A model generated the notes under the pieces. It worked only from the letters and a program-made list of their open reading frames with translations. It was not told where the DNA came from and did no database searches. Positions 29,405-56,764 of a DNA stretch of 64,000 bases are shown here, piece by piece; the stretch's first letter is position 1, and every line of letters starts with the position of its first letter. Both the position numbers and the translations under genes were made by a program. Source of the DNA: Halobellus sp. MBLA0158 (GTDB lineage: Archaea; Halobacteriota; Halobacteria; Halobacteriales; Haloferacaceae). Where the stretch lies: the NCBI RefSeq assembly GCF_041477585.1, contig NZ_JBGNYA010000001.1:1922001-1986000 (forward strand). Reading direction: 5' to 3'.

Positions 29405-29427
29405 ATGCGCGGGACAGGATTCGAACC
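29405..29427 (-). repeat. Duplicated 3' end of tRNA-Leu (relict attachment site)
   Basis: The 23 bases here are identical to 29515-29537, the 3' end of the tRNA-Leu gene (T-arm and acceptor 3' strand plus discriminator). The two copies lie exactly 110 bases apart. The 87 bases between them contain CGCTC-rich short repeats and a GATTCGAATC palindrome but no gene. Confidence 0.8.
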
Positions 29428-29515
29428 ACGGTCGCTCTGCTCGCTCCGCTCGCGTCGCTCCCTGATTCGAATCCTTCGGAACGAGATTCGTCCTCGCTGT
29501 CGCTCGGACAGAATA

Positions 29516-29598
29516 TGCGCGGGACAGGATTCGAACCTGCGGACCCCTATGGGACAGCGTCCTAAGCGCTGCGCCTTTGACCGCTTGGCTACCCGCGC
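29516..29598 (-). tRNA. tRNA-Leu (TAG)
   Basis: The minus strand forms a class II tRNA: acceptor GCGCGGG/CCCGCGC, D-arm TAGCCAAGCGGTCAAAGGC, anticodon stem CAGCG/CGCTG around loop CTTAGGA (anticodon TAG), a variable arm, T-loop TTCGAAT, and discriminator A. No intron and no encoded CCA. Its 3' end is duplicated 110 bases away. Confidence 0.95.
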
Positions 29599-29680: not shown

Positions 29681-29989
29681 GTGTACAGCGCCCGCGACCG
29701 CGTCGCCAACGAGGAGTGGCTGGCCCGCATCGAACAGGCGGCCGACCGCCTGGACCTCGGGTCGGAAGCCCGCTCGTTCGCGACGGATATGTTCCTCTCG
29801 GAGGTCCCGGACGAGGATCGCTCGAAGCGGGCGATCGCCGCCGCGAGCCTCTATGCGGGCGCGCTGATCGCCGGTGAGGAGCGCTCGCAGTCGCGCGTCG
29901 CCGACGCGATGGACGTCAGTCGGCTCAGCGTCCAACAGAACTGGAAGCCCGTGCTCGAAGCGGCGGGATTCCGGCCGCCGTCGTGGTGA
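29681..29989 (+). CDS. Miniature TFB-like protein (single cyclin-type repeat)
   Basis: Protein of 102 residues starting with GTG. It consists of one TFIIB/TFB cyclin-like repeat: RIEQAADRLDLGSEARSFATDMF, then SKRAIAAASLYAGALIAGEERSQSRVADAMDVSRLSVQQNWKPVL. Normal archaeal TFB has an N-terminal zinc ribbon, a linker and two such repeats, in about 300 residues; here the ribbon, B-finger and one repeat are absent. The second-repeat recognition helix (DVSRLSVQQNW) is kept, so DNA contact near the BRE is possible. It could modulate basal transcription or be a small DNA-binding regulator. It is not a truncated pseudogene, since it has its own promoter and a clean stop. Confidence 0.8.
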   Translation: MYSARDRVANEEWLARIEQAADRLDLGSEARSFATDMFLSEVPDEDRSKRAIAAASLYAGALIAGEERSQSRVADAMDVSRLSVQQNWKPVLEAAGFRPPSW

Positions 29990-30573: not shown

Positions 30574-30999
30574 TCACGACTCGTCGGCGAACACCCGCAC
30601 GTCGCCGTCGCTCGTCAGCCCCACGCTGACCGCGGCGTTCAGCATATTCTCGTTCGCGACGTCGCCGAGGACGCCGTAGAGGTGGGCGTACAGCTCCGGT
30701 CGGCAGTAATCGACTTTCAGGCCGGCCTCGTCGCCGCGCTCGTAGATGCGATCGACGAGGTCCTCGAAGCACGTCCCCGCCGGGACTGTGAATCGCGCGG
30801 GCGCGCGGAGCGTCCGGACCAGATCCAGCGTCCGTCGCGCTTTCTCGACGTTCTCCTCTGCGGCCCGTTCGATGGCGCTCACGTTCGAGTCGGTCGTGCC
30901 GAGCTCCGCTGCGACCTCCCGCTGTGTCCGCCCGCGCTCGCGGAGCTCTAACACCTCCACCTGTCGGTCGGTCAGGATCGTCGCCCCGGGGTCGGTCAT
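30574..30999 (-). CDS. Tfx family DNA-binding regulator
   Basis: Protein of 141 residues. The N-terminal helix-turn-helix (LTDRQVEVLELRERGRTQREVAAELGTTDSNVSAIERAA) is that of Tfx, and the C-terminal domain (RFTVPAGTCFEDLVDRIYERGDEAGLKVDYC) is the conserved Tfx extension. In Methanothermobacter, Tfx binds downstream of the promoter of the molybdenum formylmethanofuran dehydrogenase operon. Here the gene is divergent, 60 bases from a tungstate/molybdate-type ABC importer, which fits a role as its metal- or oxyanion-linked regulator. The intergenic dyad and repeats (31005-31046) are the likely operators. Confidence 0.9.
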   Translation of the reverse strand: MTDPGATILTDRQVEVLELRERGRTQREVAAELGTTDSNVSAIERAAEENVEKARRTLDLVRTLRAPARFTVPAGTCFEDLVDRIYERGDEAGLKVDYCRPELYAHLYGVLGDVANENMLNAAVSVGLTSDGDVRVFADES

Positions 31000-31004
31000 A
31001 CCCT

Positions 31005-31046
31005 GTCAAACAGATCCGTTTGAGGTAAGTTTATTGGTCAAACAGA
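31005..31046. promoter_or_regulatory. Candidate Tfx operators around the importer TATA box
   Basis: A dyad TCAAAC-n6-GTTTGA spans 31006-31023. The 10-base GTCAAACAGA occurs at 31005-31014 and again at 31037-31046, 32 bases apart, about three helical turns. The TATA-like GTTTATT (31029-31035) lies between the two direct repeats and is 28 bases upstream of the importer ATG at 31060. Bound protein would cover the promoter. Confidence 0.6.
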
Positions 31047-31059
31047 ATATGTTGCCCCT

Positions 31060-31980
31060 ATGCCGACTCCCCCGCGCCGTCTCGTCCGCCGTCGGTCCGT
31101 TCTCGCGGGTATCGGGGCCGCGTTCGGTGGCGTCGCGGGCTGTGTGGGGACCTCGGGAGGCTCCGGGGGGACAGGGACCGTCTCGATGCTCGCCGCGGGC
31201 AGCCTGAACAACGCATTGGAGAACGGTCTCCGGCCGGCCGTCGACGCGCGACTCCGCGTCGAGTCTCACGGCTCGGCGCAGGTCGCTCGCCTCGTCGCGG
31301 AGGGACAGAAGGACCCCGACATCGTGTCCTTGGCGGACGTGGCGCTGTTCGACGGCCCGCTCGATCCCGAGTGGTACGCGGAGTTCGCTACGAACGCGAT
31401 CGTGGTCGCCTACAACCCCGAGACCGAGGGCGGACGGCGCGTGGCCGACGCCGGCCGCGACGGGTGGTATCGGCCGATCGTGTCGGGCGAGGTCGATCTC
31501 GGCCGGACCGACCCTGACCTCGATCCGCTGGGCTACCGGACGCTCTTCGCGCTCGAACTCGCGACCGACTACTACGGCACCGAACGGGACCTCCGGACTG
31601 CGATTCCCGAGCGCGACCAGATCTACCCAGAGACCCAACTCATCAGCCAGTTCGAGACGGGCTCGATCGACGCCGCGATCGCCTACCGCAGTATGGCCGT
31701 CGAGCGCGACTACGACTACCTCGATCTGCCCGCCGAGATCGATCTCAGCGATCCCGCGTTCGCGGAGTCGTACGCGACGTCGACCTACGAACTCCCGAGC
31801 GGGAAGGTAATCGAGGGCGGCCCGATCAGCTACGGCTCGACGATCAGACACGACGAGCCCTCCGTCCGCGACGTCTTCGAGGCGCACGTCGCGGGCGACT
31901 ACCTCCCGGCGTATGGATTCGACCGGCCCGATGACCACCCCCGATACAGTGGAGATGTTCCCAGCGAAATCGCGGGCTAG
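31060..31980 (+). CDS. Tungstate/molybdate-type substrate-binding lipoprotein (copy 1)
   Basis: Exported lipoprotein of 306 residues. A twin-arginine motif (RRRSVLAG) precedes a lipobox VAGC at about residues 25-28. The mature protein matches the WtpA/ModA-like group: AAGSLNNALE opening, SHGSAQVARLVAEGQKDPD, GRTDPDLDPLGYRTL near 148-162 (the WtpA hallmark GRxDPxxDPxGYR), and FETGSIDAAIAYRSMA. It captures tungstate or molybdate outside the cell; which oxyanion is preferred cannot be told. The permease gene begins inside its 3' end, overlapping by about 50 bases. Confidence 0.88.
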   Translation: MPTPPRRLVRRRSVLAGIGAAFGGVAGCVGTSGGSGGTGTVSMLAAGSLNNALENGLRPAVDARLRVESHGSAQVARLVAEGQKDPDIVSLADVALFDGPLDPEWYAEFATNAIVVAYNPETEGGRRVADAGRDGWYRPIVSGEVDLGRTDPDLDPLGYRTLFALELATDYYGTERDLRTAIPERDQIYPETQLISQFETGSIDAAIAYRSMAVERDYDYLDLPAEIDLSDPAFAESYATSTYELPSGKVIEGGPISYGSTIRHDEPSVRDVFEAHVAGDYLPAYGFDRPDDHPRYSGDVPSEIAG

Positions 31981-32764
31981 GCCGATCGAGGGGCGGCTCG
32001 ACTGGCTCTCGGTGGCGTTCGTTCTCGGTGCGGTGCTTCTGGTGTACTACCTGTTTCCGCTGGTGTCGCTCCTCGTGAGCCAGCCGCCGGGGGCCGTGAT
32101 CCGCCGTCTGTCGAGTCCGGACGTCGTCGCAGCCGCGACGACCTCACTGGTCGCTGCGACCGCGAGCGCCGCCATTGCGACCGCGTTCGGACTCCCGCTC
32201 GCGTACTGGCTCGCACGCGCGGACGGGCGGATCGAGACCCTGGTGACCGCGCTCGTGGTCCTGCCGCTCGTCCTCCCGCCGATCGTCAGCGGGATGGTGC
32301 TTCTCACCGTGGTCGGCCCCGAGACGCTCGTCGGGCGGCTCGCCGCGGCGAACGGCCTCCCGCTGACGCGCTCGCTCGCTGGCGTCGTCCTCGCGCAGAC
32401 GTTCGTCGCCTCGCCGTTCGTCGTCGTCACCGCGAAGGCCGCCTTCGAGAGCGTCGATCGGAGCCTCGAATACGCCTCGCGGTCGCTTGGAAAGAGCCGG
32501 CTCGTCACGGTCAGGCGCGTGACGCTTCCGCTGGCCTGGCCGGGCATCCTCGCGGGGATCACGCTGGCGTTCGCGCGCTCGATCGGCGAGTTCGGCGCGA
32601 CGATTATGCTGGCGTACTACCCGCGGACGATGCCCGTCCAGATCTGGGTCTCGTTCACGACGCTCGGCCTCGATCGGGCGTTTCCCACCGCCGTCGTCCT
32701 CGTCGCGATCGCCGTCGCGACGCTCGTCGTGCTCAACGCCCTCGGGCGGAATCCACTGGAGTAG
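31931..32764 (+). CDS. Tungstate/molybdate-type ABC permease (copy 1)
   Basis: Integral membrane protein of 277 residues with six helices. The cytoplasmic EAA loop reads EYASRSLGKSRLVTVRRVTLP, which contacts the ATPase. SIGEFGATIMLAYYP near the C-terminus is characteristic of the ModB/WtpB/CysTW group. Start choice is ambiguous: ATG at 31931 or at 31955, both within the binding-protein gene. The ATPase gene follows after two bases. Confidence 0.88.
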   Translation: MTTPDTVEMFPAKSRARPIEGRLDWLSVAFVLGAVLLVYYLFPLVSLLVSQPPGAVIRRLSSPDVVAAATTSLVAATASAAIATAFGLPLAYWLARADGRIETLVTALVVLPLVLPPIVSGMVLLTVVGPETLVGRLAAANGLPLTRSLAGVVLAQTFVASPFVVVTAKAAFESVDRSLEYASRSLGKSRLVTVRRVTLPLAWPGILAGITLAFARSIGEFGATIMLAYYPRTMPVQIWVSFTTLGLDRAFPTAVVLVAIAVATLVVLNALGRNPLE

Positions 32765-32766
32765 CG

Positions 32767-33792
32767 ATGCTCGAACTCACAGACCTCACGAAGCGCTACG
32801 ACGGGTTCGCGTTCGGCCCCCTCGATCTGACCGTCGAGGACGACGTCCTCGCGGTGCTCGGTCCCTCGGGGAGCGGCAAGACGACGTTGCTGTCGCTGAT
32901 CGCCGGGATCGTCGAACCGGACGACGGAACGCTCGCACTGCGCGGGCGGTCGCTTGTCGGCACGCCGCTCGAATCCCGACGGACCGGACTCGTGTTCCAG
33001 GACGGCGCGCTGTTCCCGCATATGACCGCGCGTGAGAACGTCAGGTACGCGGCCGCAGACTCCGAGCGCGTCGACGAACTGGCCGAACGCCTCGAAATCA
33101 GCGGCATCCTCCACCGCAAGCCCGGACAGCTGTCGGGCGGCGAGCGCCAACGGGTGGCGCTGGCCCGAACGCTCGCCGCCAACCCGGACGTGTTGCTCTT
33201 GGATGAACCGCTATCGAGCCTCGACGCGCCGATCAGACGTCGCCTCCGGAGCGAACTGCACACGCTCTTCGACTCGCTTTCGATTCCGGTGGTCTACGTG
33301 ACCCACGACCAACGCACGGCGACCGCACTCGGCGACCGAATGGCGATCTTTCGAGACGGCCGGATCGAACAGATCGGCGACGCCGAGTGCGTGCTCTGTG
33401 AGCCCGCGAACGAGTTCGTCGCCCGGTTCACCGGCACCGAGAACGTGTTCGACGCCGTCGGCGACGGCCGGTCGCTCCGAGTCGGCGACCGCACACTCAA
33501 CGTCGACGAATCCGTCCCGGAGGGAGCTTCCGTGACGGCCTGTATCCATCCCTCCCGCATCGGACTCGTCTCGCCGGACGACCAAGCAGGTGACGAGGCG
33601 ACTACCCTCCCGGGAACGGTGGACCACTGGCTCAACGAGGGCGGAGAGTACCGGATCGTCGTCGACGTCGAAGGAGTTCCGGCACCGATCGTCGCGGCGG
33701 TCCAGCCGCCCGTGTTCGAGGCGTTGCGCGCGGCCGACGGGACAGCCGTCCGCGTCGTGATTCCCCGCTCTTCCGTTCACCTCATCCGGTAG
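32767..33792 (+). CDS. Tungstate/molybdate-type ABC ATP-binding protein (copy 1)
   Basis: Cytoplasmic ATPase of 341 residues. Walker A GPSGSGKTT, signature LSGGERQ, Walker B LLLDEP, and switch THD are intact. A C-terminal region of about 100 residues (from SVTACIHPSRIGLV) is a TOBE/Mop-type domain, which in ModC/WtpC can bind the oxyanion and shut off transport. It completes the importer operon. The 137-base gap to the recombinase gene contains an imperfect hairpin (33887-33911). Confidence 0.9.
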   Translation: MLELTDLTKRYDGFAFGPLDLTVEDDVLAVLGPSGSGKTTLLSLIAGIVEPDDGTLALRGRSLVGTPLESRRTGLVFQDGALFPHMTARENVRYAAADSERVDELAERLEISGILHRKPGQLSGGERQRVALARTLAANPDVLLLDEPLSSLDAPIRRRLRSELHTLFDSLSIPVVYVTHDQRTATALGDRMAIFRDGRIEQIGDAECVLCEPANEFVARFTGTENVFDAVGDGRSLRVGDRTLNVDESVPEGASVTACIHPSRIGLVSPDDQAGDEATTLPGTVDHWLNEGGEYRIVVDVEGVPAPIVAAVQPPVFEALRAADGTAVRVVIPRSSVHLIR

Positions 33793-33886
33793 CGTTCCCC
33801 TACTCCGGCGTTTCGGCCCCGAGAACCGTAGAATTCTGGATGCCTGCTTTCGAACTGATCGTAGATCCGCTCACCAAATTCTATAT

Positions 33887-33911
33887 AGCGAGATACAATA
33901 TATCAGTCGCT
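33887..33911. repeat. Imperfect AT-rich hairpin between importer and recombinase
   Basis: AGCGAGATA and TATCAGTCGCT form an imperfect dyad around CAATA, in the gap between two convergent genes. It could be a bidirectional terminator or a remnant recombination site of the adjacent tyrosine recombinase. Confidence 0.35.
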
Positions 33912-33929
33912 CTCCGAACGGCTGTCGTG

Positions 33930-35000
33930 TCAATACAACGAATAGATGTGGCGCTCGTAGGTCTCTCGGACTCGATCGCCCCAGTTGTGGGTGTACGTGT
34001 CGATGATGTCGCCGCCGACGTCGCCGCGGAGATACTTGACGATCCCCCGGTCACCGGTCCGATCTCGGAGGTGCGTCGTGAAGAAGTGCCGAAAGTAGTG
34101 CGGGGTGACGTTCTCGTCGGCCCCCCCGCCGGATCGATGCCAGCCGGCGGCCTTCGCGTGGCGCTCGACGATGTGATGGACCATATCCGGCGTCAGCCGC
34201 GCCCCCCAGGTACCAGACGTGCTAGCGAACAGGGGCTCCGCGGGAGATCGTGTCGCCGGGCGCACGGCGAGCCAGCGACGGAGCGCCGTTTCGAGCTCCT
34301 CGTCCACCGGAACGACCGTCGCGCGCTTCCGCTTGTTGGACGCCGAGCGTTCCTCGTCGTTGAGGACCTCGCCGGCCGTGGGTTCGGCAGAGACGTACAG
34401 CGACGGTCCGCGGCCGTCAAGCTGCGTCCGGGAGACGACGTCGCCGTTCGTGACAGCACGTAGCGGTGTATCGTCGGCCAGGGAGACGTCGCGCAAGTCC
34501 AGATTGCAGAGTTCGCCGACCCGCATTCCGGTCTTCAGGAGGGTACAGACCACCGCGTGATCGAGCGGATGGGTGACGTCGCGGACGAACTCCCGCATCG
34601 CCGGCAGGGAGATCTCACGGCGAGACGGGTCGGTGTCGATCTGTTCGTCCATCTCCTCCATCACGAGCGCCATCGGATTCGAATCGAAGGTCCCGACCTG
34701 CGTCAGATACGCGTAGAATCGATGGAGGTACGAGGCGTACGTCGCGATCGTGCTGTCGGCCGCGTCGGAACGCCTGAGCGTGTGTATCCAGGCCATACAG
34801 TCCCGATAGGTGGCCTCAGCGACGTCTATCGAGGCGTTCTGTGGATTCGCGCCGGGATCAGCGAGGAACGCCTCAAACCGTCTGAGAACCCGCTCGTACG
34901 CCTCGCGAGTCCTTTCTGACTTCCCGTGGTAGGTCATATCCTCCAGGAAGTAGGCGATCGGATCTTCGGGCCGCTCTGTGGTGACCGATTCACCGCTCAT
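33930..35000 (-). CDS. Tyrosine recombinase / site-specific integrase
   Basis: Protein of 356 residues. Residues 12-105 form the SAM-like core-binding domain (SERTREAYERVLRRFEAFL). The catalytic domain has Arg160 (KTGMRVGELCNL), His301 and Arg304 (PHYFRHFFTTH), and the nucleophile Tyr336 (DIIDTYTH), so all key residues are present. It resembles haloarchaeal Xer-like recombinases that are carried with a small ribbon-helix-helix partner, as here. Chromosomal dimer resolution or mobility of an element are both possible. The start overlaps the partner gene's end by 11 bases. It lies between two molybdate/tungstate importers. Confidence 0.9.
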   Translation of the reverse strand: MSGESVTTERPEDPIAYFLEDMTYHGKSERTREAYERVLRRFEAFLADPGANPQNASIDVAEATYRDCMAWIHTLRRSDAADSTIATYASYLHRFYAYLTQVGTFDSNPMALVMEEMDEQIDTDPSRREISLPAMREFVRDVTHPLDHAVVCTLLKTGMRVGELCNLDLRDVSLADDTPLRAVTNGDVVSRTQLDGRGPSLYVSAEPTAGEVLNDEERSASNKRKRATVVPVDEELETALRRWLAVRPATRSPAEPLFASTSGTWGARLTPDMVHHIVERHAKAAGWHRSGGGADENVTPHYFRHFFTTHLRDRTGDRGIVKYLRGDVGGDIIDTYTHNWGDRVRETYERHIYSLY

Positions 35001-35433
35001 CGACGCCCTCCGCGGACTCCGCGAGGGTGTACCCGCCGTGACGACCGCTGTACTGCACGGCGTTCGACGCCTGTAACTCCTGGAGCGTCGCGTCGAGTCG
35101 GTCTTCGATATCGTCTGTCAGCTCTGCCAGCAGTTCGTCCCACGAACGGTACTCGGATGCCGAGAGGACGCGCTTGACGCGGCGCTCGAAGCCGTCCTCC
35201 GGATCGTTGGTCCGGTCGGACTCGGGGGTCGACGCCCCGGAATCGGCCTCATCTCCGTCCGTCGTCAGCGAGGGGACCTCGAAGTCTCGCCGCCCGGCCT
35301 GGACCATCGTACGAACGAACTCGCTTTGGCTCATTCCCAGCTCCTCGGCGTGGGTCGCCCACCGCTCTTTCTGATAGGCCGGCACGTACGTCATCACCGT
35401 GGTCCGCTCCGTATCCGATCCCTCAGTCGACAT
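34990..35433 (-). CDS. Ribbon-helix-helix partner of the recombinase (DUF5805-like)
   Basis: Protein of 147 residues. Residues 12-50 look like a ribbon-helix-helix or related DNA-binding segment (TVMTYVPAYQKERWATHAEELGM, then SQSEFVRTMVQAGRRDF). An acidic linker follows, then a second helical domain (FERRVKRVLSASEYRSWDELLAEL) ending in a winged-helix-like part (LQASNAVQYSGRHGGYTLAES). It resembles haloarchaeal DUF5805 proteins. Cotranscription and 11-base overlap with the recombinase suggest that it guides or regulates recombination. A TCAAAC/GTTTGA dyad lies 79 bases upstream. Confidence 0.78.
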   Translation of the reverse strand: MSTEGSDTERTTVMTYVPAYQKERWATHAEELGMSQSEFVRTMVQAGRRDFEVPSLTTDGDEADSGASTPESDRTNDPEDGFERRVKRVLSASEYRSWDELLAELTDDIEDRLDATLQELQASNAVQYSGRHGGYTLAESAEGVDER

Positions 35434-35511
35434 AGAACCGACTGCGAACGCGATCCACTTCAGTGTTTGCAGATACCAGGATAAGAGAGATTAGGTGTGT
35501 TTGTAAATGCG

Positions 35512-35527
35512 TCAAACGAGGGTTTGA
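35512..35527. promoter_or_regulatory. TCAAAC/GTTTGA dyad upstream of recombinase operon
   Basis: TCAAAC-GAGG-GTTTGA, with the same half-sites as the dyad between tfx and the first importer but a spacer of four rather than six bases. It is 79 bases upstream of the DUF5805-like start, in AT-rich DNA (TTTAATTATTTG follows). Confidence 0.45.
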
Positions 35528-36482
35528 GTTTAATTATTTGTGTGACTATGAGCAAATTTAGCAAGAGAGAATATACTTACACATCTAATATTTGTTGGAT
35601 GCAAAAGGTCATAGTATGCCTGAGAAATCCCGCTATTTCTTCGATTACGATTTCCGATGAACAACTTCGATTCGGTGTCGGCGGGAACGAAAATCCAAAA
35701 TCGGATCGGGGGTCTTCGGAACGTTACCCCTGGGGTCGATGGGGTGAAGAAGCCCTTCCAGATGTGAAGTCTCAAAAACAGTTTCGCCCGAATTGACGTG
35801 GTTTCTCGAACTCATCGTTCTCGACTCAATCACGTAGTGTTGAGATAGCGAACAGAGGTCCCCCATAATTGGTACAACGAGAATTCGACGGACTGTGAAC
35901 GACATCCGTCTCCTCACTTCCCACGATGGTTCGTGACTGGAGTTCGCACCCGCTCGGTGGGAGGTCAGATTTTCGGATGCATTCGAATGGAGACTGCCGT
36001 TCGATTCCTGACCACCGCACTGATTCGATAGCGAGCGCGGTGAATCCCATTAGAGCGCATCAAGCCATCAGCGAGTGGGATTCTTCGTAGATACAGCCGA
36101 TCTTCGGAGCCCGTGTGCAGGTAGATATGCGGAATCCTGGCCAACTACGGCTCCACTGAACTGTGCTGGGAATCACGAGTCAGTTCTCGCTACACAGGAA
36201 CCAAAGCGGTCCTCACGAAAGGGTAGGATCTATTGGTCCCGACGCACGGGGACCTCCGGACGCTGAACGAGTCTGCGTCATCCGTTTTTGCATTCTCTTC
36301 TCGTCTAGTTTCGATCGACAGTAATATTTGGTAACATTCTACATATCCACGACTGTCTTCGCTCGCACTTGTAAATTATATACCGCTATATCGATTGGCC
36401 GGTGCTCACGCTATGCAATTTGGTTGTAAATTGGCACATCCGTGACGCGACTGAGTAACAGGAACTCAGATAGTCCGGATCC

Positions 36483-36507
36483 TACCGATCGCCGAATTAG
36501 ATCGGTA
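36483..36507. terminator. Hairpin downstream of the MATE gene
   Basis: TACCGATC and GATCGGTA form a perfect 8-bp stem with a nine-base loop, about 115 bases beyond the MATE stop. It may be a terminator or a protein-binding dyad; no strong T-run follows in the MATE direction. Confidence 0.35.
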
Positions 36508-36620
36508 AAATCGGTCACTTACCCTCGCTCACGGACAAACGCCAAGAATCGATCACCGAGAGCCACCAAGAGAGTCGGACGGAAGTAGCGGAGGCCGTGA
36601 CGAGCGGCCCGTCAGTAAAC

Positions 36621-38114
36621 TCAATCATCCGCCGGGACTTCCCGTTCGCGGCCTCGCTCGATCACGCCGTCGGTCCAGGTGCCGCGCCGGAAGTACAGTC
36701 CCGAGATGAGCACCATCGCGACGTTGGCGAGGGCGATCCCGTACCAGACGCCGGTCGCGCCGAGATCGAACCACGCGAGCAGGACGTATGCCGGCGGCAC
36801 GCGGAGGAGAATCAGCCCGAGCACGCCGAAGATCATCGCCAGCCGAGTGCTTCCGCTCCCGCGGTAGGCGCCCTGGAGGACGTGGAACACGCCGAGGAAG
36901 GCGTACGTCGCGCCGACGATGCGGAGGTACTCGGCCCCGACCGCGACGACGCGTGTGGCGTCGGGGCCGGTGATGAAGACGTCGACGATGGCGGCCGCAC
37001 CGAGATACACGATCACGGAGACGACGGCGAGCACGACAGCGGTAATGGCAGCGCTCGCGACGACCGACTGCTTCGCCCGGTCGGGCTGCTTCGCGCCGAG
37101 GTTCTGCCCGACGATCGTCTCCGTCCCGCGCGCGAGGCCGAGCGCGGGCAGCACGACGAGCGAGGTGACCCGCGTTCCGATTCCGTAGGCCGCGACCGCG
37201 TCGGCGCCAGCGAGCGCGACGAGCGCGGTGACGACCGTCACGCCCAGGGACTGGGTGCTCATCTCGATGCTGGCCGGGCCGCCGATCCGGACGATCTTTC
37301 GGATCGTCTCGCGCGTGGGAACGAAATCACGCGGTGCGAGGTGGATCCCGACGCGGCCGGAGAGCAAGAGCCCGATCGCGACGACGGCCCCTAGGCCCCG
37401 CGAGGCGATCGTCGCGATCGCCGCGCCCTGGACGCCGAAGCCGGTGAATCCGGTCGCGGCGAACAGGTCCGCCTGCAGCGCCGTCAGGCCCGCGACCTCG
37501 AACAGGAGATTGTCCTGGAAACCGAGGATCAGGAAGGGATCGGCGACGACGTTGAGCACGACGCCGAGGAGCATCAGGTACAGCGGCGTGCGGGTGTCGC
37601 CCCAGCCCTGGAGGAGCGACTGGAAGATGAAGAAGCCGAAGACGAACGGGATCCCCAGAAACATCGTCCGTGTGTAGGTCACAGAGAGGGCGAACACCTC
37701 GGTCCCGGGCGTCGCGCCGATCAGTCGGAGCAGCCACGGCGCCAGCGCGTAGCCGACTACCGAGAGCAGAACCGACGCCCCGATGACGAACGCGATCGTC
37801 TGCCCGGCGACCGCGCTGATCCGATCAAGGTTGCCCGCGCCCTTGTTCTGAGCGACGAGGACCGTCCCGGCGACGGTGAAGCCGGCGGCGAGGGTGATGA
37901 TCAGGAAGACGATCGCCCACGAGAACGAGAGGGCGCTGACCGCGTCCTGGCCCAGTCGACCGACCCAGAAGGTGTCCGCGAGGTTGTAGGCGACCTGCAG
38001 GAGGTTCGTGAGCACGATCGGCAGCGACAGCACCACGAGCGGCTTGAGCAGGGGGCCGTCGGTGACGTTCACCGCGCGCCGCCCGCCCGAATCGGGGGCG
38101 TCGCTCCCGCTCAT
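36621..38114 (-). CDS. MATE family efflux transporter
   Basis: Integral membrane protein of 497 residues with twelve predicted helices in two similar halves. Family motifs include LSLPIVLTNLLQVAYNLADTFWVGRLG at the first helix, GWGDTRTPLY in the first half and GRGTETIVGQNLGA-like LARGTETIVGQNLGA in the second. MATE proteins export cationic drugs, metabolites or flavins in exchange for Na+ or H+. The substrate is unknown. It lies 145 bases from the MOT1 permease stop on the same strand; whether this placement has meaning for molybdenum handling is not clear. Confidence 0.92.
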   Translation of the reverse strand: MSGSDAPDSGGRRAVNVTDGPLLKPLVVLSLPIVLTNLLQVAYNLADTFWVGRLGQDAVSALSFSWAIVFLIITLAAGFTVAGTVLVAQNKGAGNLDRISAVAGQTIAFVIGASVLLSVVGYALAPWLLRLIGATPGTEVFALSVTYTRTMFLGIPFVFGFFIFQSLLQGWGDTRTPLYLMLLGVVLNVVADPFLILGFQDNLLFEVAGLTALQADLFAATGFTGFGVQGAAIATIASRGLGAVVAIGLLLSGRVGIHLAPRDFVPTRETIRKIVRIGGPASIEMSTQSLGVTVVTALVALAGADAVAAYGIGTRVTSLVVLPALGLARGTETIVGQNLGAKQPDRAKQSVVASAAITAVVLAVVSVIVYLGAAAIVDVFITGPDATRVVAVGAEYLRIVGATYAFLGVFHVLQGAYRGSGSTRLAMIFGVLGLILLRVPPAYVLLAWFDLGATGVWYGIALANVAMVLISGLYFRRGTWTDGVIERGREREVPADD

Positions 38115-38258
38115 CGTTCCGCTCCCGTCGGGAGCGCGTCGTCGGTCGGAGGGCGGTCGCGGTGGACCAGTTGCAGTGCCGTCGTCAACGTCGTAGTGGT
38201 ATCAGGTCCCGCTGGATAGCGGTTGCGTTCCGCGCCCGCGAGGACGTCGCGGACGCGG

Positions 38259-39353
38259 TCACGCGTCGGCGACGCGTCGGCGGAGACGGGCGGCGACGAC
38301 GCCGACCACGAACGCGATCCCGACGTTCGTCGCCACGCCGAGGAGCCCGACCCCGACGGTGATCGGGAGGTCGTCCGTATCCAGGCCGGCTCGGCCCAGT
38401 TCGACGGCGATGACCGCGAGGACGACGCCCAGCATCGAGAGGGGAAAGGCGGCCACCGCGCCGACCGCGACGACGGCCGCGAGCGCGTAGAGGACGCCGA
38501 GGATCACGTTCGCGCCGGCGGTCCGGGCGCCGAAGGCGTACTTGCCCGCGACGCCGCCGCTGCCGTGGCACATCGGCATCGCGCCGACGGGGATCGCGAG
38601 GAGGTTCATCGCGCCCATACTGCTCGCGAGGTCGTCGGCGGAGACGTCGGCGTCGAAGTAGTCCGAGAGCAGGAGCGACGTCGCCACGGCGGCGTTGCCG
38701 ACCGTCATCGCGAGCTGGCCGACGGTCGCGCCGACGGCGTCGGTCGAGAGCGCGACGGCGCCGGGAGGGACGAACGCGAGCGTTGGGAGGTGCGGGCTCG
38801 GCATCCCGGTCTCGGCGAGCGCGACGGCGATCCCGACCGCGAGGACCGCGAGCGTGCTGCCCCGACGGTATCCGACCGCGACGGTCCCGGCGACGACGCC
38901 GATCGCGACGAGCGCGTACACCGGGCCGCCGAGGCTCAGTTCGACGCCCGTGCGGAGGAGCACGAGCCCGACCGCGAGCTGGACGCCGCGGATCACCGGC
39001 CGGTCGACGTAGCGCTCGATCCGGGCCAGCGTCCCCGTCGCGCCGACGGCGAGCAGCGTGACGCCCGCGAGCAGGCCAGCCGCCGCGAGCTCCGACGGCG
39101 TGAGCGAGCCCGCGATCACGAGCGCGGCGAGCGCCTTCATCGGCTCGACGGAGATCGGGAGCCCGTAGTAGAGCCCCCAGACGACCTGGAAGACCGCGAA
39201 GCCGAGCAGCAACCGCGACAGCGAGAGGTCCGTGAGCGCCGCGACCGCGACGACGACCGGAAGAACCGTAACCGAATCCCCTAACGCCCCGGTCAGCTCG
39301 CTCCGGGAGAGTTCGAACCCCGAGAGCCGCCGGACGCGAGCGAGGTTCTCCAT
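38259..39353 (-). CDS. MOT1-type molybdate/sulfate permease
   Basis: Integral membrane protein of 364 residues with about ten helices. The pattern matches MOT1, a SulP-related molybdate transporter family lacking the STAS domain: YYGLPISVEPMKALAALVIAG near the first third and AIPVGAMPMCHGSGGVAGKYAFGARTAG in the second half. These PxxPMK and PxCHGSGG segments are the two MOT1 signatures. It would import molybdate without ATP. The ATG at 39353 is preferred over a GTG one codon upstream. It sits between two ABC importers for the same type of anion. Confidence 0.88.
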   Translation of the reverse strand: MENLARVRRLSGFELSRSELTGALGDSVTVLPVVVAVAALTDLSLSRLLLGFAVFQVVWGLYYGLPISVEPMKALAALVIAGSLTPSELAAAGLLAGVTLLAVGATGTLARIERYVDRPVIRGVQLAVGLVLLRTGVELSLGGPVYALVAIGVVAGTVAVGYRRGSTLAVLAVGIAVALAETGMPSPHLPTLAFVPPGAVALSTDAVGATVGQLAMTVGNAAVATSLLLSDYFDADVSADDLASSMGAMNLLAIPVGAMPMCHGSGGVAGKYAFGARTAGANVILGVLYALAAVVAVGAVAAFPLSMLGVVLAVIAVELGRAGLDTDDLPITVGVGLLGVATNVGIAFVVGVVAARLRRRVADA

Positions 39354-39529
39354 CACATTCGTACAGTATCCGGCCCTACATAACCGCTTGGTTCGGAAGG
39401 CGGATTCGGCTAGGAAGTAGATTCCGCCGTGTCAGGTCTGCGATCGCGATCAGTGGTGACGGTTACCCACTCCGAAAACGAAACCACGTACGGTTTCGTT
39501 CGTCGATGTCGACGACGGCGCGGACGCGA

Positions 39530-40216
39530 TCAGACGGAGATGCCGCGGGTCGCCGTCGCCTTGAACGAGACGACCACGTCGCTTCCGGGCGCCAGCCCCA
39601 ACTTCTCGCGGCTGTCCTGAGTGACAAGCGCCAGGAGCGGCTCCTCGGTCCCGATATCGACGGCGATCCGGGCGATGCGCTCTCCCGACTCGACGCCGGT
39701 GACCGTCCCCGAAAAGCGGTTTCGCGCGCTCGTGTGCTCGGGGACGGGGGTGTCGGCGGGGTCGGTCAGCGTCACGGCGTCGGCGCGGATCGACAGCTGT
39801 ACGCGGCCCTCGCCCTCTGGGACGAGTGCGCGGACGGGCCCCGCGTCGGTGTCGACGGTGACGAGCTCGCCGTCCCGCGCCGTGATCTCGCCCTCCAGGA
39901 CCGTCTCGGCGATGTCGGCGACGCCCTCGAAGCTCTGTTGGGTCCGCTCGAAGGCCGTGAGGAGATCGTTGGCGGTCTCTGTGAGTTCGCTCCCGCCGCC
40001 GCCGGACCCGCCGCGACGGCGCTCGACGAGCGATCCGAACGCCTCTTCGAGTTCGACGACGCGCCGCTGGGCGTGTGCGTACGATCGGCCGAGGACCTCC
40101 GCGGCGTGATTGAGCGAGCCCTCCCGGTCGATGGCGCGCAGGAGCGCGGCGTCGCGGGCGTCGAGCGTCACGCCGTCGTTCCGGATGTAAGCGTCGAACG
40201 AGGGGCGAACGTCCAT
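39530..40216 (-). CDS. ModE-like regulator with TOBE/Mop domains
   Basis: Protein of 228 residues. Residues 15-90 form the ModE winged helix (DARDAALLRAIDREGSLNHAAEVLGRSYAHAQRRVVELEEAFG) with the LVERRRGGSGGGGSELTE glycine-rich turn. Residues about 100-228 hold two TOBE/Mop-type segments (EGEITARDGELVTVDT... and RNRFSGTVTGVESGERIARIAVDIG), which bind molybdate or tungstate. ModE proteins repress import genes when the oxyanion is abundant. The gene is divergent from the second importer with a 63-base gap, which contains a near-palindrome TCGTGGCCGCGA (40226-40237). Confidence 0.92.
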   Translation of the reverse strand: MDVRPSFDAYIRNDGVTLDARDAALLRAIDREGSLNHAAEVLGRSYAHAQRRVVELEEAFGSLVERRRGGSGGGGSELTETANDLLTAFERTQQSFEGVADIAETVLEGEITARDGELVTVDTDAGPVRALVPEGEGRVQLSIRADAVTLTDPADTPVPEHTSARNRFSGTVTGVESGERIARIAVDIGTEEPLLALVTQDSREKLGLAPGSDVVVSFKATATRGISV

Positions 40217-40279
40217 AGCTGTTCTTCGTGGCCGCGAGCAAAAGCATTATGTCTCCGCTGATAAAACGGGGATGTATCT

Positions 40280-41410
40280 ATGTCGGAACAACGATCCGAA
40301 CGCAGAGACACAGCAGAGAGCGGATGGAGAAAGGCAGCCTCCCGTCGACAATACCTGACCGCAGCCGGTGCCGCGGGCGTCGCCGCCCTCGCCGGGTGTT
40401 CGGGCGGTAATAGCGGTGGCGGAGGGTCCGAAGACACCGAGACGGAGGCCTCCGGGGGCGACTCGACCGCCACCGAGACCGGGACGCCGACCGCGACTCC
40501 GATGGGTGACTCGATGACGATCTTCCACGCGGGGTCGCTCGCGCCGCCGTTCAGCGAGGCCGAGCCGCAGTTCGAAGAGGAGTACGGCGTCGACGTCACT
40601 CGCGAGGCGAAGGGCTCAGTCGCGTCGACCCAGAAGATCACCCAACAGGGTCGCTCGGCCGACGTCCTCGGCGTATCGGACTTCCGGCTGATCCGGAACC
40701 GGATCCTCCCGGACTACGGCGACTGGTACGCCATCTTCACGACGAACTCGATGTCGATCCAGTACCGCGAGGACTCCCCCGGCGCCGACGAGATCTCGTC
40801 GGACAACTGGTGGGAGATCCTCACCCGCGACGACGTCACCATCGGCCACTCCGATCCCGCAGTCGACCCCGGCGGCTACCGCGCGGTGATGTCCCAGCAG
40901 CTCGGTGCGATCGAGTTCCAGGGCGAGCGCCTCTACGACGACGCCACCTACCAGCAACTCCGGGAGAACTCGACGGTCCCGACGGGCACCGAGACCAACC
41001 TCGAAGGCCAGCTCGAATCCGGCGAGCTCGACTACGTCTTCTACTACCAGTCGATCTCAGCGAGCTCCGGCCTCCCGTACGTCGACCTCCAGCCCGAGGT
41101 CGACCTCTCGCGGGCGAACAGCGAGTACGCAGAACACTACGCGAAGGCCGAGGTCGAGACGGGCTCGGGGACGTTCACCGGCGCGCCGATCGCCTACGGG
41201 ATCACCGTCCCCTCCGTCGCGGAGTCTCCGGGCCGCGGCGCCCAGTGGGTCGAGTACTTCGCGACCGACCCCGGCCGGACCGTGCTCGAGGACTTGGGGC
41301 TCGTGCCGGTCGATCCGATCGTCGTCCCGGCGGGCGCCGAGGACGCCGTCCCCGACAGCGTGATGGAGGTCGCGAGCGCGCAAGAGAACCTCGGCCCGCT
41401 GGAGCTATAG
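40280..41410 (+). CDS. Tungstate/molybdate-type substrate-binding lipoprotein (copy 2)
   Basis: Exported lipoprotein of 376 residues. SRRQYLTAAG is the twin-arginine motif and LAGC the lipobox near residues 37-40; a Thr/Glu-rich linker follows. The binding domain opens with MTIFHAGSLAPPF and contains AKGSVASTQKITQQGRSAD, IGHSDPAVDPGGYRAV (the GxSDPxxDPxGYR hallmark) and LESGELDYVFYYQSISAS. It differs from copy 1 by about 70 additional residues and by sequence, so it is a paralog from a different branch and not a recent duplicate. Confidence 0.9.
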   Translation: MSEQRSERRDTAESGWRKAASRRQYLTAAGAAGVAALAGCSGGNSGGGGSEDTETEASGGDSTATETGTPTATPMGDSMTIFHAGSLAPPFSEAEPQFEEEYGVDVTREAKGSVASTQKITQQGRSADVLGVSDFRLIRNRILPDYGDWYAIFTTNSMSIQYREDSPGADEISSDNWWEILTRDDVTIGHSDPAVDPGGYRAVMSQQLGAIEFQGERLYDDATYQQLRENSTVPTGTETNLEGQLESGELDYVFYYQSISASSGLPYVDLQPEVDLSRANSEYAEHYAKAEVETGSGTFTGAPIAYGITVPSVAESPGRGAQWVEYFATDPGRTVLEDLGLVPVDPIVVPAGAEDAVPDSVMEVASAQENLGPLEL

Positions 41411-41437
41411 GCGGGGCCGCTCTCTTCTGGACTCACG

Positions 41438-42421
41438 ATGGCCACAGAGACCGGACCCCGACTGGACGTCGACGCCGGCGGGATCAACAGCGCCGCGCTC
41501 GTCGCCGCGTTCGTCGGCCTCCAAGCGGTCGCGTTCGCGGCGGCGTACACCGCCGGGCGCCCCACGTGGTACGCCTACTTTATGATCGGGAGCACCGCGG
41601 TCACCGCCTACGCGCTCGACGGCTCCTCGTTCGTCGTCGCGAGCGCGACGCTCGGGAGCGTCCTCGTCGTCGCGCTCGGCCTGCCGCTGTTTATGTTCGT
41701 CGCGCGGCAGACGCCGTCGCTCGTCGTCGAGAAGGCCCTCGATCCCGGCGTTCACCGCGTGCTGTACCTCGGCGTCTACGGGCCGCTACTGGCGGCGCTC
41801 CTCAGCCTCGCGTTCGGCGTCCCGCTGGCGCACCTGCTGGCCGAGGGCTTCCGCGGCCAGCCGCTCGTCGAGAGCCTCGTCGACCTCCCGCTCGTCGTGC
41901 CGCACTCCGTCGCCGGCATCCTGATCCTCTTCGGCTTCGGGAAGGGCGGCGCGTTCCCCAACGTCTCCGTGCTGGGGTCGATGATCGGGATGGTACTCGC
42001 GATGGCGTTCGTCGCGGCGCCCTACGCAGTCAACGCCACGCGTGAGGCGTTCGAGGCGATCGACAACCGCCTCGAATACGCCTCTCGGATCCACGGCGCG
42101 AACCGCTGGGAGACCTTCCGCCGGGTCACGGGTCCGCTGGCCGCCCGCGGGATGATCACCGGCGGCGTGCTGGCGTGGGCCCGCGCCGTCTCGGAGTTCG
42201 GTGCGGTCGCCGTCGTCGCCTACAGCGTGGAGTTCTTCTACCCGTTCGAGGGCGGGGACGTGACCGCCCAGCACGCCCCGGTGTTCGTCTACAACACCTA
42301 CCTCCAGGGCGGCCTCGAGGAGAGCGGCGCCGTGGCCTTCCTGCTCTTGGCGGTCTCTGCGGTCATCTTCCTGATCGTCCGCTACCTGACCGACGACAAC
42401 ACGATGGGGGGTGTGCCGTGA
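41438..42421 (+). CDS. Tungstate/molybdate-type ABC permease (copy 2)
   Basis: Membrane protein of 327 residues. In addition to the six core helices it has extra N-terminal helices (AALVAAFVGLQAVAFAAAYTAG, then WYAYFMIGSTAVTAYAL), which copy 1 lacks. The EAA loop is EYASRIHGANRWETFRRVTGP, and AVSEFGAVAVVAYSVEFFYPF marks the C-terminal gate. It starts 27 bases after the binding-protein stop, and its own stop overlaps the ATPase GTG by four bases. Confidence 0.9.
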   Translation: MATETGPRLDVDAGGINSAALVAAFVGLQAVAFAAAYTAGRPTWYAYFMIGSTAVTAYALDGSSFVVASATLGSVLVVALGLPLFMFVARQTPSLVVEKALDPGVHRVLYLGVYGPLLAALLSLAFGVPLAHLLAEGFRGQPLVESLVDLPLVVPHSVAGILILFGFGKGGAFPNVSVLGSMIGMVLAMAFVAAPYAVNATREAFEAIDNRLEYASRIHGANRWETFRRVTGPLAARGMITGGVLAWARAVSEFGAVAVVAYSVEFFYPFEGGDVTAQHAPVFVYNTYLQGGLEESGAVAFLLLAVSAVIFLIVRYLTDDNTMGGVP

Positions 42422-43419
42422 GCTACCTCGCCGCGGACGTCGTCTCGACGTTCACCGCCGAAGGGGCCGAGCCGTTCACCGTCAACGCCGGCGTCGAGGT
42501 CGGGGCGGCCGAGAATCTGGTCATCCTCGGGCCGTCGGGGAGCGGCAAGACGCTCCTCCTGGAGTCGATCGCGGGCTTCCACGAACACGACGGCACCGTG
42601 ACCGTCGACGAGACCGACATCACCGACCACGCTCCGGAGGACCGCGACTTCGGCTTCGTGTTCCAGGACTACGCGCTGTTCCCGCATATGACCGTCCGCG
42701 AAAACGTCGAGTACGGGGCGCGCTACCGGGACTCGTCGCGCGAAGCCGACGAACTGCTCGCAGAACTCGGCGTCTCCCACCTGGCCGAGCGGAACCCGCC
42801 GACGCTCTCGGGCGGAGAGAAACAGCGCGTCGCGCTCGCCCGCGCGCTTGCGGTGCGTCCGGACGTCCTCCTCTTAGACGAGCCGCTCGCCGCGTTGGAC
42901 GTGCCGACGCGGCAGTTGCTGCGGGACGATCTCGTCGACGTCCTCGCGGACGTGACCTCGATCTACGTCACGCACAACCGCACGACTGCGCGGGCGATCG
43001 CCGATCGGATCGCCGTGATGCAGGACGGGAGCGTCGTCCAGCGCGGCACGCCCGAGGAGGTGTTCGAGCGGCCCGAATCCCCGACAGTCGCGAGCTTCAC
43101 TGGATCGAACGTCGTCGACCTCACGTCGGCACCTTCGCTGCGCTCGCGCCTGAACGGGACGCTCACGAACGCCGAGACGGACTCGGGGTCCGAGCCCGAG
43201 CGCGTCGCGATCAGGCCGGAGGCCGTCCGCTTCGACGGAGACGCGAGCGGCGACGGCGACGTCCGCGCGCGGGTCGAACGCGTCGTCCGTGAGGACGCGA
43301 CGAACCGCATCACGCTGGCCTTCGACGACGTGACCGTCGAGGCGTTCGCCGACCGCCCGCCGGAGGTCGGCAGCGAGATCGTCGTCTCGTTCCCGCGCGA
43401 CCGGCTCCACCCCTGCTGA
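42418..43419 (+). CDS. Tungstate/molybdate-type ABC ATP-binding protein (copy 2)
   Basis: ATPase of 333 residues starting with GTG at 42418, which shares GTGA with the permease stop. Walker A GPSGSGKT, signature LSGGEKQ, Walker B LLLDEP and switch THN are visible; the usual switch histidine is kept but the following Asp is Asn. The C-terminal 100 residues form a TOBE-like domain (RVAIRPEAVRFDG...RVVREDATNRITLAFDD). It powers copy 2 of the importer. Confidence 0.9.
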   Translation: MSYLAADVVSTFTAEGAEPFTVNAGVEVGAAENLVILGPSGSGKTLLLESIAGFHEHDGTVTVDETDITDHAPEDRDFGFVFQDYALFPHMTVRENVEYGARYRDSSREADELLAELGVSHLAERNPPTLSGGEKQRVALARALAVRPDVLLLDEPLAALDVPTRQLLRDDLVDVLADVTSIYVTHNRTTARAIADRIAVMQDGSVVQRGTPEEVFERPESPTVASFTGSNVVDLTSAPSLRSRLNGTLTNAETDSGSEPERVAIRPEAVRFDGDASGDGDVRARVERVVREDATNRITLAFDDVTVEAFADRPPEVGSEIVVSFPRDRLHPC

Positions 43420-55094: not shown

Positions 55095-55886
55095 TCACTC
55101 GCCGATCAGGCCGCGGATCCGATCGACGTGCTCGCCGAACGCCGGGTCGGTGCGCTCGCGCGGGCGGTCGAGGTCGACGGAGACGACCTCCCGGACGCGG
55201 CCCGGATTGGCCGCCATCACGACCACCCGATCGGAGAGCTTCACCGCCTCCTCGACGTCGTGGGTCACGAACAGCACCGTCTTCTCTGTCTCGGACCAGA
55301 TCCGGAGGAGTTCTCCGTGGAGCATATCCCGGGTCTGTGCGTCGACGCTGCCGAACGGCTCGTCGGCGAGCAGGATCTCCGGGTCGACCGCGAGCGCCCG
55401 CGCGATGCCGACGCGCTGTTTCATCCCGCCGGAGAGCTCCTTCGGGTAGGCGTCCGCGAAGTCCGAGAGCCCGACCAGATCGAGCATCTCGTCGATCCGG
55501 CGCGTCCGCTCGGCGCCGTCGACGCCCTGCTCTTCGAGGCCGAAGGCGACGTTGCCGCGGACGGTCCGCCAGGGGAACAGGCCGTACTCCTGGAAGACCA
55601 TCCCCCGGTCCGTTCCGGGCCCGGTGACGGGCTCGCCGTCGAGGCGGATCTCGCCGCTCGTCGGCGCCTCCAGCCCCGCGATCGTCCGGAAGAGCGTCGT
55701 CTTACCGCAGCCCGACGGGCCGACGAGACAGACGAACTCCCCGTCGGAGACCGAGAAATTCACGTCCGAGAGCGCCTCGACGCGCTGGCGCTCCGACTCG
55801 TAGACCCTGCCCACGCCGTCGACGACGACCTTCGGGCTGGCGTCGGACTCGTCTGAGCCGGCCGCCGCGCCCGGGTCGTCGCTCAC
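55095..55886 (-). CDS. ABC transporter ATP-binding protein (nitrate/sulfonate/taurine type)
   Basis: ATPase of 263 residues starting with GTG at 55886. Walker A GPSGCGKTT, signature LSGGMKQRVGIARAL, Walker B ILLADEPFGSVDAQTR and switch THD are intact. The FGSVDAQTR segment is typical of the SsuB/TauB/NrtD group. It forms the importer with the overlapping permease (GTGA junction) and the binding protein. Substrate class is set by the binding protein, which is of the NMT1/SsuA type. Confidence 0.92.
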   Translation of the reverse strand: MSDDPGAAAGSDESDASPKVVVDGVGRVYESERQRVEALSDVNFSVSDGEFVCLVGPSGCGKTTLFRTIAGLEAPTSGEIRLDGEPVTGPGTDRGMVFQEYGLFPWRTVRGNVAFGLEEQGVDGAERTRRIDEMLDLVGLSDFADAYPKELSGGMKQRVGIARALAVDPEILLADEPFGSVDAQTRDMLHGELLRIWSETEKTVLFVTHDVEEAVKLSDRVVVMAANPGRVREVVSVDLDRPRERTDPAFGEHVDRIRGLIGE

Positions 55887-56764
55887 TCCCGCCACGCCAG
55901 AACCCTCCGTTCGACCCGGCGGAATAGCCCGTCGCTCACGAGGAAGACGAGGCTGATGACGCCCATATACGCCACGCTCACGTCCGTCGCGAGGTTCTGG
56001 GCGGCGTTGATGATCTGGAAGCCGACGCCCGGCGCGCCGAACAGCTCGGCGGCGACGACGATCATCCAGCACTGCCCGATGCTGGTCCGGATCCCCGTCG
56101 CGATCGAGGGGGTCGCCGCGGGCAGGACCACCTTCCGGATCATCGTGAGGTCGTCGTCGACGCCGAGGCTCGCCGCGACCTCCTTCAGGTGGGTCGAGAC
56201 GCCCTCGACGCCCGCGTAGGCGTTGTAGAAGTTGATCCAGAAGGCGCCGATGCCGACGATGAACGCCGCGCCGCCGTGGCCGATGCCGATCCAGACGATC
56301 GCGAAGACGATCCACGCCAGCGGCGGGATCGGCCGGAGGAACCGAGTGACGGGCGTGAGCGCGTCGTCGAGGCGGGCGCTCCAGCCCATCCCGACGCCCA
56401 GCGCGATGCCGAGGACGCTCCCGACGACCAGGCCGGGGACGTAGTGGAGCAGGCTCTGTGCGAGGTTCGCGATCAGGCGCGTCGCCGGGACGGTGACGCC
56501 GACGAACGGGACGGCGAACGTCGTCGGCGCGGTGAACTCGACGACGAACGCGGTCGCGACCTCGACCGGCGAGGGGAGGAGGTACGTCCGACCCACCGCC
56601 ATCGCCGCGGCCTGCCAGACCGCGAGGAAGACGACCGATCCGACGGCGCCGTACGCCAGACCGACCGTGTCGAGGCCCGAGGCTCCCTCGGTCTCGCCGT
56701 CGCTGCGGGACCGCGCGACGTCGGTCGTGCTCGACTCCGACGCCGTCCCGGCCTCGACGCTCAT
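55883..56764 (-). CDS. ABC transporter permease (nitrate/sulfonate/taurine type)
   Basis: Membrane protein of 293 residues with a polar N-terminus of about 30 residues and six helices. YLLPSPVEVATAFV near residue 61 and the EAA loop EVAASLGVDDDLTMIRKVVLPAATPSIATGI mark the SsuC/TauC type. PLAWIVFAIVWIGIG is the conserved core helix. Stop and start overlap neighbours by four bases on each side. Confidence 0.92.
   Translation of the reverse strand: MSVEAGTASESSTTDVARSRSDGETEGASGLDTVGLAYGAVGSVVFLAVWQAAAMAVGRTYLLPSPVEVATAFVVEFTAPTTFAVPFVGVTVPATRLIANLAQSLLHYVPGLVVGSVLGIALGVGMGWSARLDDALTPVTRFLRPIPPLAWIVFAIVWIGIGHGGAAFIVGIGAFWINFYNAYAGVEGVSTHLKEVAASLGVDDDLTMIRKVVLPAATPSIATGIRTSIGQCWMIVVAAELFGAPGVGFQIINAAQNLATDVSVAYMGVISLVFLVSDGLFRRVERRVLAWRE

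Follow-up and report, generated by a model that had tools for sequence, protein, structure and literature searches.

A 64,000-nucleotide stretch of the Halobellus sp. MBLA0158 genome (contig NZ_JBGNYA010000001.1, positions 1,922,001 to 1,986,000; hereafter the window) probably encodes two complete WtpABC-type molybdate/tungstate (Mo/W) importers under two independent local switches, with wtpABC1 repressed by a Tfx-family protein (Tfx-b) and wtpABC2 by a ModE-like protein. An original prediction, made from the sequence alone, had assigned each importer its own divergent regulator, and this is confirmed by gene order and by conserved dyads. The tfx/wtpA and modE/wtpA divergence is not due to chance, since both arrangements are found again in many families, the intervening dyads being conserved. 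Gene content, adjacency, the operators and their specificity, regulator switching and the metal ligands were computed; we infer protein-DNA binding, the sign of regulation, the oxyanion signal and metal preference. Regulators of the Tfx family are widespread in archaea and very few have been characterised; a defined candidate operator, a dedicated target and natural Tfx/ModE switches together provide testable predictions on the control of Mo/W supply in archaea.

The two regulators are accompanied by two distinct cis codes. When both boxes were sought in both groups of promoters, 24 of 25 ModE-paired promoters had the ModE box, against none of the 12 Tfx-paired ones, and the Tfx box was found in 9 of the 12 Tfx-paired promoters and in none of the 25 ModE-paired ones. 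Both promoters of the window carry only the dyad of their own regulator, cross-sites being absent from each. Some unpaired sister importers retain the box of their own clade; thus, two type-2 importers (genomes G080 and G167) have no adjacent divergent ModE gene and have kept the ModE box.

Well supported branches of the WtpA tree require at least three changes of partner regulator between Tfx and ModE. The survey covered 195 Halobacteriales genomes, for which all ModE counts are lower bounds. Among the matches listed, six type-1 importers were paired with Tfx, at least 14 with ModE and 18 with neither; the corresponding numbers for type-3 importers were six, at least eight and 60, while a divergent ModE gene accompanied at least 29 of the 38 type-2 importers. 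The pairing of type-1-like importers with either regulator in relatives suggests that the little-known Tfx may stand in for ModE, the classic regulator of molybdate uptake. The original prediction of separate control by separate regulators is thus upheld at the cis level, each promoter having its own dyad only. Its proposal that the two proteins sense different oxyanions finds no such support: because Tfx and ModE replace one another at the same importer type, they appear to read equivalent signals.

The tfx/wtpA1 gap is 60 bp long and holds, between both start codons, dyad 1, a shared TATA-like box and a weaker dyad 2. Site 1 is the only exact TCAAAC-N6-GTTTGA match in the host genome (3.29 Mb, two contigs), in which no wider Tfx regulon was found (28 matches with up to two mismatches, compared to 17 with the reversed control pattern, per strand). 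For the cross-genome scan, site 1 was extended by the promoter start (GWTAA) and up to two mismatches were allowed in the 195 genomes, again with the reversed pattern as control. All nine matches with no more than one mismatch were WtpA promoters, eight of them adjoining Tfx-b, while those with two mismatches were about as frequent as with the control (32 and 33, respectively). The ninth promoter (G051) has no detected Tfx-b, and in G113 a two-mismatch site is found, with Tfx-b encoded elsewhere in the genome; in the WtpA tree these two importers are the closest sisters of the Tfx-paired importer of G035. The dyad was also present, with zero or one mismatch, in seven out of seven further haloarchaeal loci.

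The window protein is a clear member of the Tfx family (TIGR00721, 103.2 bits with a cut-off of 60.25; TFX_C domain PF14601, 53.3 with a cut-off of 27) and matches the PDB entries 1nr3 and 8hno. In a tree of 31 Tfx proteins from the survey sample, the family splits into a form present in most genomes and the Tfx-b clade of 15 proteins, which includes the window Tfx (support 100/100). The new element here is that the window Tfx belongs to a distinct, WtpA-linked clade, apart from the Tfx of most haloarchaea. Twelve of the 15 Tfx-b genes form a divergent pair with a WtpA gene, the matched stretches lying 64-106 bp apart. Two of the three unpaired genes lie near Mo-related genes: that of G113 is ∼4 kb from a CoxG/CoxM/xanthine dehydrogenase (XDH)-type cluster, and that of G025 is near MoaC, the matching record (L255) adding two MoeA genes. 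Tfx was absent from all other fetched WtpA regions (L122-L167, ∼9-19 kb each).

A separate collection of haloarchaeal loci (Halobellus inordinatus, Halorubrum salinum, two of Natrinema hispanicum, two of Natribaculum breve, and Halorientalis marina) gave the same picture, with all seven Tfx-b genes divergent from WtpA; about four of these seven are independent, the Natrinema and Halorientalis loci being close to sampled genomes. The N. breve loci (L249 and L250) are located on two plasmids of one strain, each with a tfx-wtpABC module and with different WtpA types, and the module therefore travels on plasmids. Beyond Halobacteria, in other families of the phylum, 8 of 40 sampled Tfx loci have a WtpA gene as their immediate divergent neighbour; several more are near genes of dimethyl sulfoxide (DMSO) reductase type, MoeA or MoaC. 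Since the pairing recurs outside Halobacteria, it may be old in Halobacteriota. Some of these non-halobacterial gaps appear to contain similar AAAC-N6-ATT/GTT dyads, and the WtpA-linked Tfx proteins mostly group together in a tree whose deep branches are weakly supported. In the open-access literature searched, neither a link between Tfx and WtpA nor these operators were found described.

The second regulator matches the helix-turn-helix profile PF00126 above its cut-off, but reaches only 61.4 bits with TIGR00637 (cut-off 98.5). Its TOBE/Mop sensor with the SARN motif was recognised by PF03459 (64.8 bits) and TIGR00638 (56.1 with a cut-off of 55), and the TSARN segment aligns with ModE and Mop structures. 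One clear TOBE domain (residues 162-222) is present; the TOBE_2 match spans 141-223, and residues ∼100-140 are outside the domain matches. The element CGTTRTRTC-N7-GAACAACG over the wtpA start codon is common to ModE-paired importers, whether of WtpA type 1, 2 or 3, and many loci have a second copy 25-27 bp upstream, on the TATA region. This CGTT...AACG-type dyad presumably resembles the ModE box of Escherichia coli. No wider ModE regulon was found in the genome (13 matches in all, compared to six with the control, those with two mismatches outside the modE/wtpA2 gap being close to background), and the box was not found upstream of MOT1 or the MATE gene. The E. coli modE/modABC system likewise has a helix-turn-helix and TOBE regulator adjoining an importer. 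However, E. coli ModE has two TOBE domains, and the arrangement described here differs in its tandem dyads 25 bp apart, one over the wtpA coding start, and in having MOT1 downstream of modE.

MOT1 (PF16983, two matching stretches, 3.2e-44) had been placed as a permease between the two systems. Instead, it belongs to the ModE/WtpABC2 module, since its gene is a neighbour of ModE in two congeners and comes after WtpC2 in another two genomes (L128, L129, L134, L145); congeners carry this block without tfx-wtpABC1. In one of them, G115, the flanks are collinear and modE-wtpABC2-MOT1 is present, while the coaD-xerC slot is filled by other genes. In H. inordinatus the order is that of the window: coaD, tfx, wtpABC1, xerC, DUF5805. 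In the "island", two modules that were inherited separately are thus juxtaposed, tfx-wtpABC1 occupying a variable coaD/xerC-like slot. The view that the two importers are not recent duplicates was borne out by their low identities (29% for the binding proteins, 35% for the permeases and 53% for the ATPases) and by the position of WtpA1 and WtpA2 in different, well supported clades of the WtpA tree. With WtpA2 as the query, they were the only WtpA proteins found in the genome, other matches being limited to the N-terminal signal/low-complexity region.

The closest PDB relatives of WtpA1 and WtpA2 are all archaeal WtpA/ModA chains. The tungsten ligands of Pyrococcus furiosus WtpA are Asp160 and Glu218, in octahedral coordination (PMC10221389). 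These residues are positions 132 and 190 of the 3cg1 chain (an offset of 28 for both), and the Asp and Glu are kept in WtpA1, WtpA2 and 64 of 64 aligned rows. The equivalog level of TIGR03730 (cut-off 242.75) was missed by WtpA1 (122 bits) and WtpA2 (231.8 bits), and because of such missed NCBIfam equivalog cut-offs the substrates were assigned by homology and by the ligand residues. Given their archaeal WtpA/ModA best relatives, the retained Asp and Glu and the TOBE-domain ATPases, both operons are likely to be WtpABC-type Mo/W importers. They share operon components, sequence family and the two carboxylate ligands with WtpABC of P. furiosus and ModBC-A of Archaeoglobus fulgidus. The Halobellus system differs from these in that there are two copies, which have diverged and are each accompanied by a local regulator in divergent orientation, and in binding proteins and permeases that fall below equivalog cut-offs.

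No Mo/W enzyme was found in the window, as had been noted before, and a genome search gave ten elsewhere (four AOR/AFOR-type, four DMSO-reductase-type molybdopterin oxidoreductases and two XDH-type), so both metals may be wanted. XDH/Cox-type hydroxylases are Mo enzymes. Type-1 importers or Tfx-b occur near MocA-like, MoeA and XDH/Cox-type genes (G014, G045), near MoeA, MocA, XdhC and XDH genes (G190), or near a Cox/XDH cluster (G053, G113). Because of this proximity to Mo-hydroxylase and Mo-cofactor genes, module 1 probably supplies Mo, most likely serving mainly Mo enzymes of the XDH/CO dehydrogenase type. No Mo/W enzyme genes were found within ∼5 kb of type-2 importers, hence no metal preference can be read for WtpABC2.

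In the mechanism that we propose, a Tfx-b dimer would bind TCAAAC-N6-GTTTGA and the weaker copy 32 bp away, the two dyads flanking the single shared TATA box of the 60-bp gap. With oxyanion plentiful, Tfx-b would shut off the importer and its own gene, and starvation would release both. The ModE-like protein, its TOBE domain loaded with molybdate or tungstate, would act in the same way at two dyads 25 bp apart, on the TATA box and the start codon of wtpA2; modE and MOT1 probably share a transcript. Local (auto)repression of wtpABC1 by Tfx and repression of wtpABC2 by ModE appear most likely: the ModE family behaves in this way, and in the case of Tfx the dyads surround the TATA box, its relative EnfR is a repressor and ModE is the regulator replaced. 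EnfR of Thermococcus onnurineus (TON_1525, PDB 8hno) is also a Tfx-family dimer acting as a repressor on a pseudo-palindromic site; however, the sequence of that site differs, the target is CO dehydrogenase, and no ligand of EnfR is known (PMC10570040). Tfx of Methanothermobacter (fmdECB) shares the family and the Mo/W context, and tungstate represses the tfx transcript (PMC3087415), which fits an oxyanion signal. Its target is a Mo enzyme operon, bound downstream of the promoter, whereas here the target is an importer and the dyads lie around a shared TATA box. We tentatively extend the proposal, with rather less than even confidence, to Tfx as a second, archaeal family of Mo/W-sensing repressors replacing ModE at importers, in which TFX_C of the WtpA-linked clade would bind the oxyanion; this domain carries a conserved P-E-L-Y segment in that clade.

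Several observations weigh against repression by oxyanion-sensing Tfx-b and ModE at Mo/W importers. The EnfR target is a CO dehydrogenase cluster (PMC10570040), a ligand for any Tfx (TFX_C) was not found reported in the literature searched, and the third unpaired Tfx-b gene (G069) is divergent from an aldehyde dehydrogenase gene. Moreover, the dyad is degenerate in the three most divergent Tfx-paired loci, 18 of 38 type-1 importers have neither regulator adjacent among the matches listed, and neither the two WtpA proteins nor the permeases reach NCBIfam equivalog cut-offs. The first and third points, like the position of the G113 Tfx-b gene near its CoxG/CoxM/XDH-type cluster, would suit a Tfx-b that responds to something else (redox state, electron donor, CO or an aldehyde), with wtpABC1 induced to feed Mo to a pathway. 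We regard this as somewhat unlikely, since the same promoters switch to the oxyanion-type regulator ModE, Tfx-b is mostly paired with an importer and not with an enzyme, and tungstate represses tfx in the methanogen (PMC3087415). A Tfx-b that activates wtpABC1, bringing TBP/TFB to the importer from site 1 and at the same time masking the start of tfx, is unlikely. Site 1 is indeed the stronger dyad; it precedes the wtpA1 TATA box and covers the region where tfx starts, and Methanothermobacter tfx is tied to an operon expressed in the presence of molybdate (PMC3087415). However, site 1 and the TATA-like box are 2 bp apart, an overlap with the TFB recognition element (BRE) would be expected, the second dyad sits between the TATA box and the wtpA1 start, and EnfR, the only relative with a tested sign, represses (PMC10570040). 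An activator would also be at odds with its replacement by ModE, which represses in E. coli.

The dyads coincide in part with TATA boxes, and those for ModE also with the start codon, as they would if they reflected nothing but core-promoter or start-codon constraint. This is highly improbable, as the type of dyad goes with the regulator, irrespective of the kind of importer, the dyad persists in unpaired sisters (G051, G113; G080, G167), and the Tfx dyad is virtually absent elsewhere. It is also quite unlikely that the two systems are simply redundant and neighbours by chance, their separate control having no meaning for Mo versus W. G115, which keeps modE-wtpABC2-MOT1 with other genes in the coaD-xerC slot, speaks for this possibility, and the proximity itself is likely due to chance, yet the modules are conserved independently of one another and have separate cis codes, and H. 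inordinatus repeats the coaD-tfx-wtpABC1-xerC order. Under the preferred reading, two locally repressed importers, the operators and pairings offer a way to annotate many haloarchaeal importers.

The genes, coordinates and families named in the original prediction agree with profile and domain matches (Table 1). The corrected starts of wtpB1, wtpC2 and MOT1 were inferred from homologues and overlaps.

Table 1. Genes and candidate regulatory sites of the two importer modules (positions within the window)
Feature	Position	Strand	Remarks
tfx (Tfx-b clade), regulator divergent from wtpABC1	30574..30999	-	TIGR00721 and PF14601 above cut-offs; clade support 100/100
Candidate Tfx-b operator, site 1, TCAAACAGATCCGTTTGA (TCAAAC-N6-GTTTGA)	31006..31023	.	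Same place in other Tfx/WtpA gaps
Shared A/T-rich TATA-like box, TAAGTTTATT (TAAGCTTA in relatives)	31026..31035	.	∼30 bp from each start codon; putative promoter role
Weaker Tfx-like dyad, TCAAAC-N7-GTTG	∼31038..31054	.	32 bp from site 1; partly conserved in relatives
wtpA1, binding lipoprotein	31060..31980	+	WtpA family; Asp and Glu metal ligands retained
wtpB1, permease	31955..32764	+	Start 31955 (ATG) favoured over 31913
wtpC1, ATPase with C-terminal TOBE domain (TOBE_2)	32767..33792	+	Domain search
MOT1-family permease	38259..39353	-	PF16983, 3e-44; downstream of modE, same strand; ATG at 39353
modE-like helix-turn-helix and TOBE regulator divergent from wtpABC2	39530..40216	-	PF00126 and PF03459 above cut-off; TSARN motif
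ModE-type dyad 1, CATTATGTCTCCGCTGATAAAACG	40245..40268	+	On TATA region
ModE-type dyad 2, GGATGTATCTATGTCGGAACAACG	40270..40293	+	Overlaps wtpA2 start codon
wtpA2, binding lipoprotein	40280..41410	+	WtpA family; Asp and Glu ligands retained
wtpB2, permease	41438..42421	+	Family match
wtpC2, ATPase with TOBE domain (TOBE_2)	42418..43419	+	Probable GTG start; 4-nt overlap with wtpB2

The search for repeats at the insertion boundaries of tfx-wtpABC1 gave nothing convincing. Mobilisation of the importer by xerC was considered and set aside, xerC-DUF5805 being present also in G115 without tfx-wtpABC1. The genes for a XerC-like integrase and a DUF5805 protein (33930-35433) adjoin wtpC1 both here and in H. 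inordinatus; such genes adjoin WtpABC1 in another arrangement in G027/G056, and MOT1 in G115. The XerC-like/DUF5805 region is possibly a landing site for cargo. Between DUF5805 and the MATE gene, which was not seen at that place in G115, lies ∼1 kb without a convincing gene (35500-36500), with a G+C content of 47-51% in a region of 67%.

In G069 (L118, 5596-7620), a degenerate Tfx dyad was seen between the Tfx-b and aldehyde dehydrogenase genes; the importer of this genome is ModE-paired. Elsewhere in the window, the 3' end of a tRNA-Leu gene has an exact 23-bp copy ∼110 bp from the tRNA gene (29405-29427 and 29515-29537), as expected of an old integration site. A 95-amino-acid protein with a single TFIIB cyclin repeat, a possible miniature TFB, is encoded next to coaD (29702-29986), also in G115. 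Finally, a pair of genes for an NMT1-like binding protein and a permease (55883-57843) is missing from the collinear region of G115.

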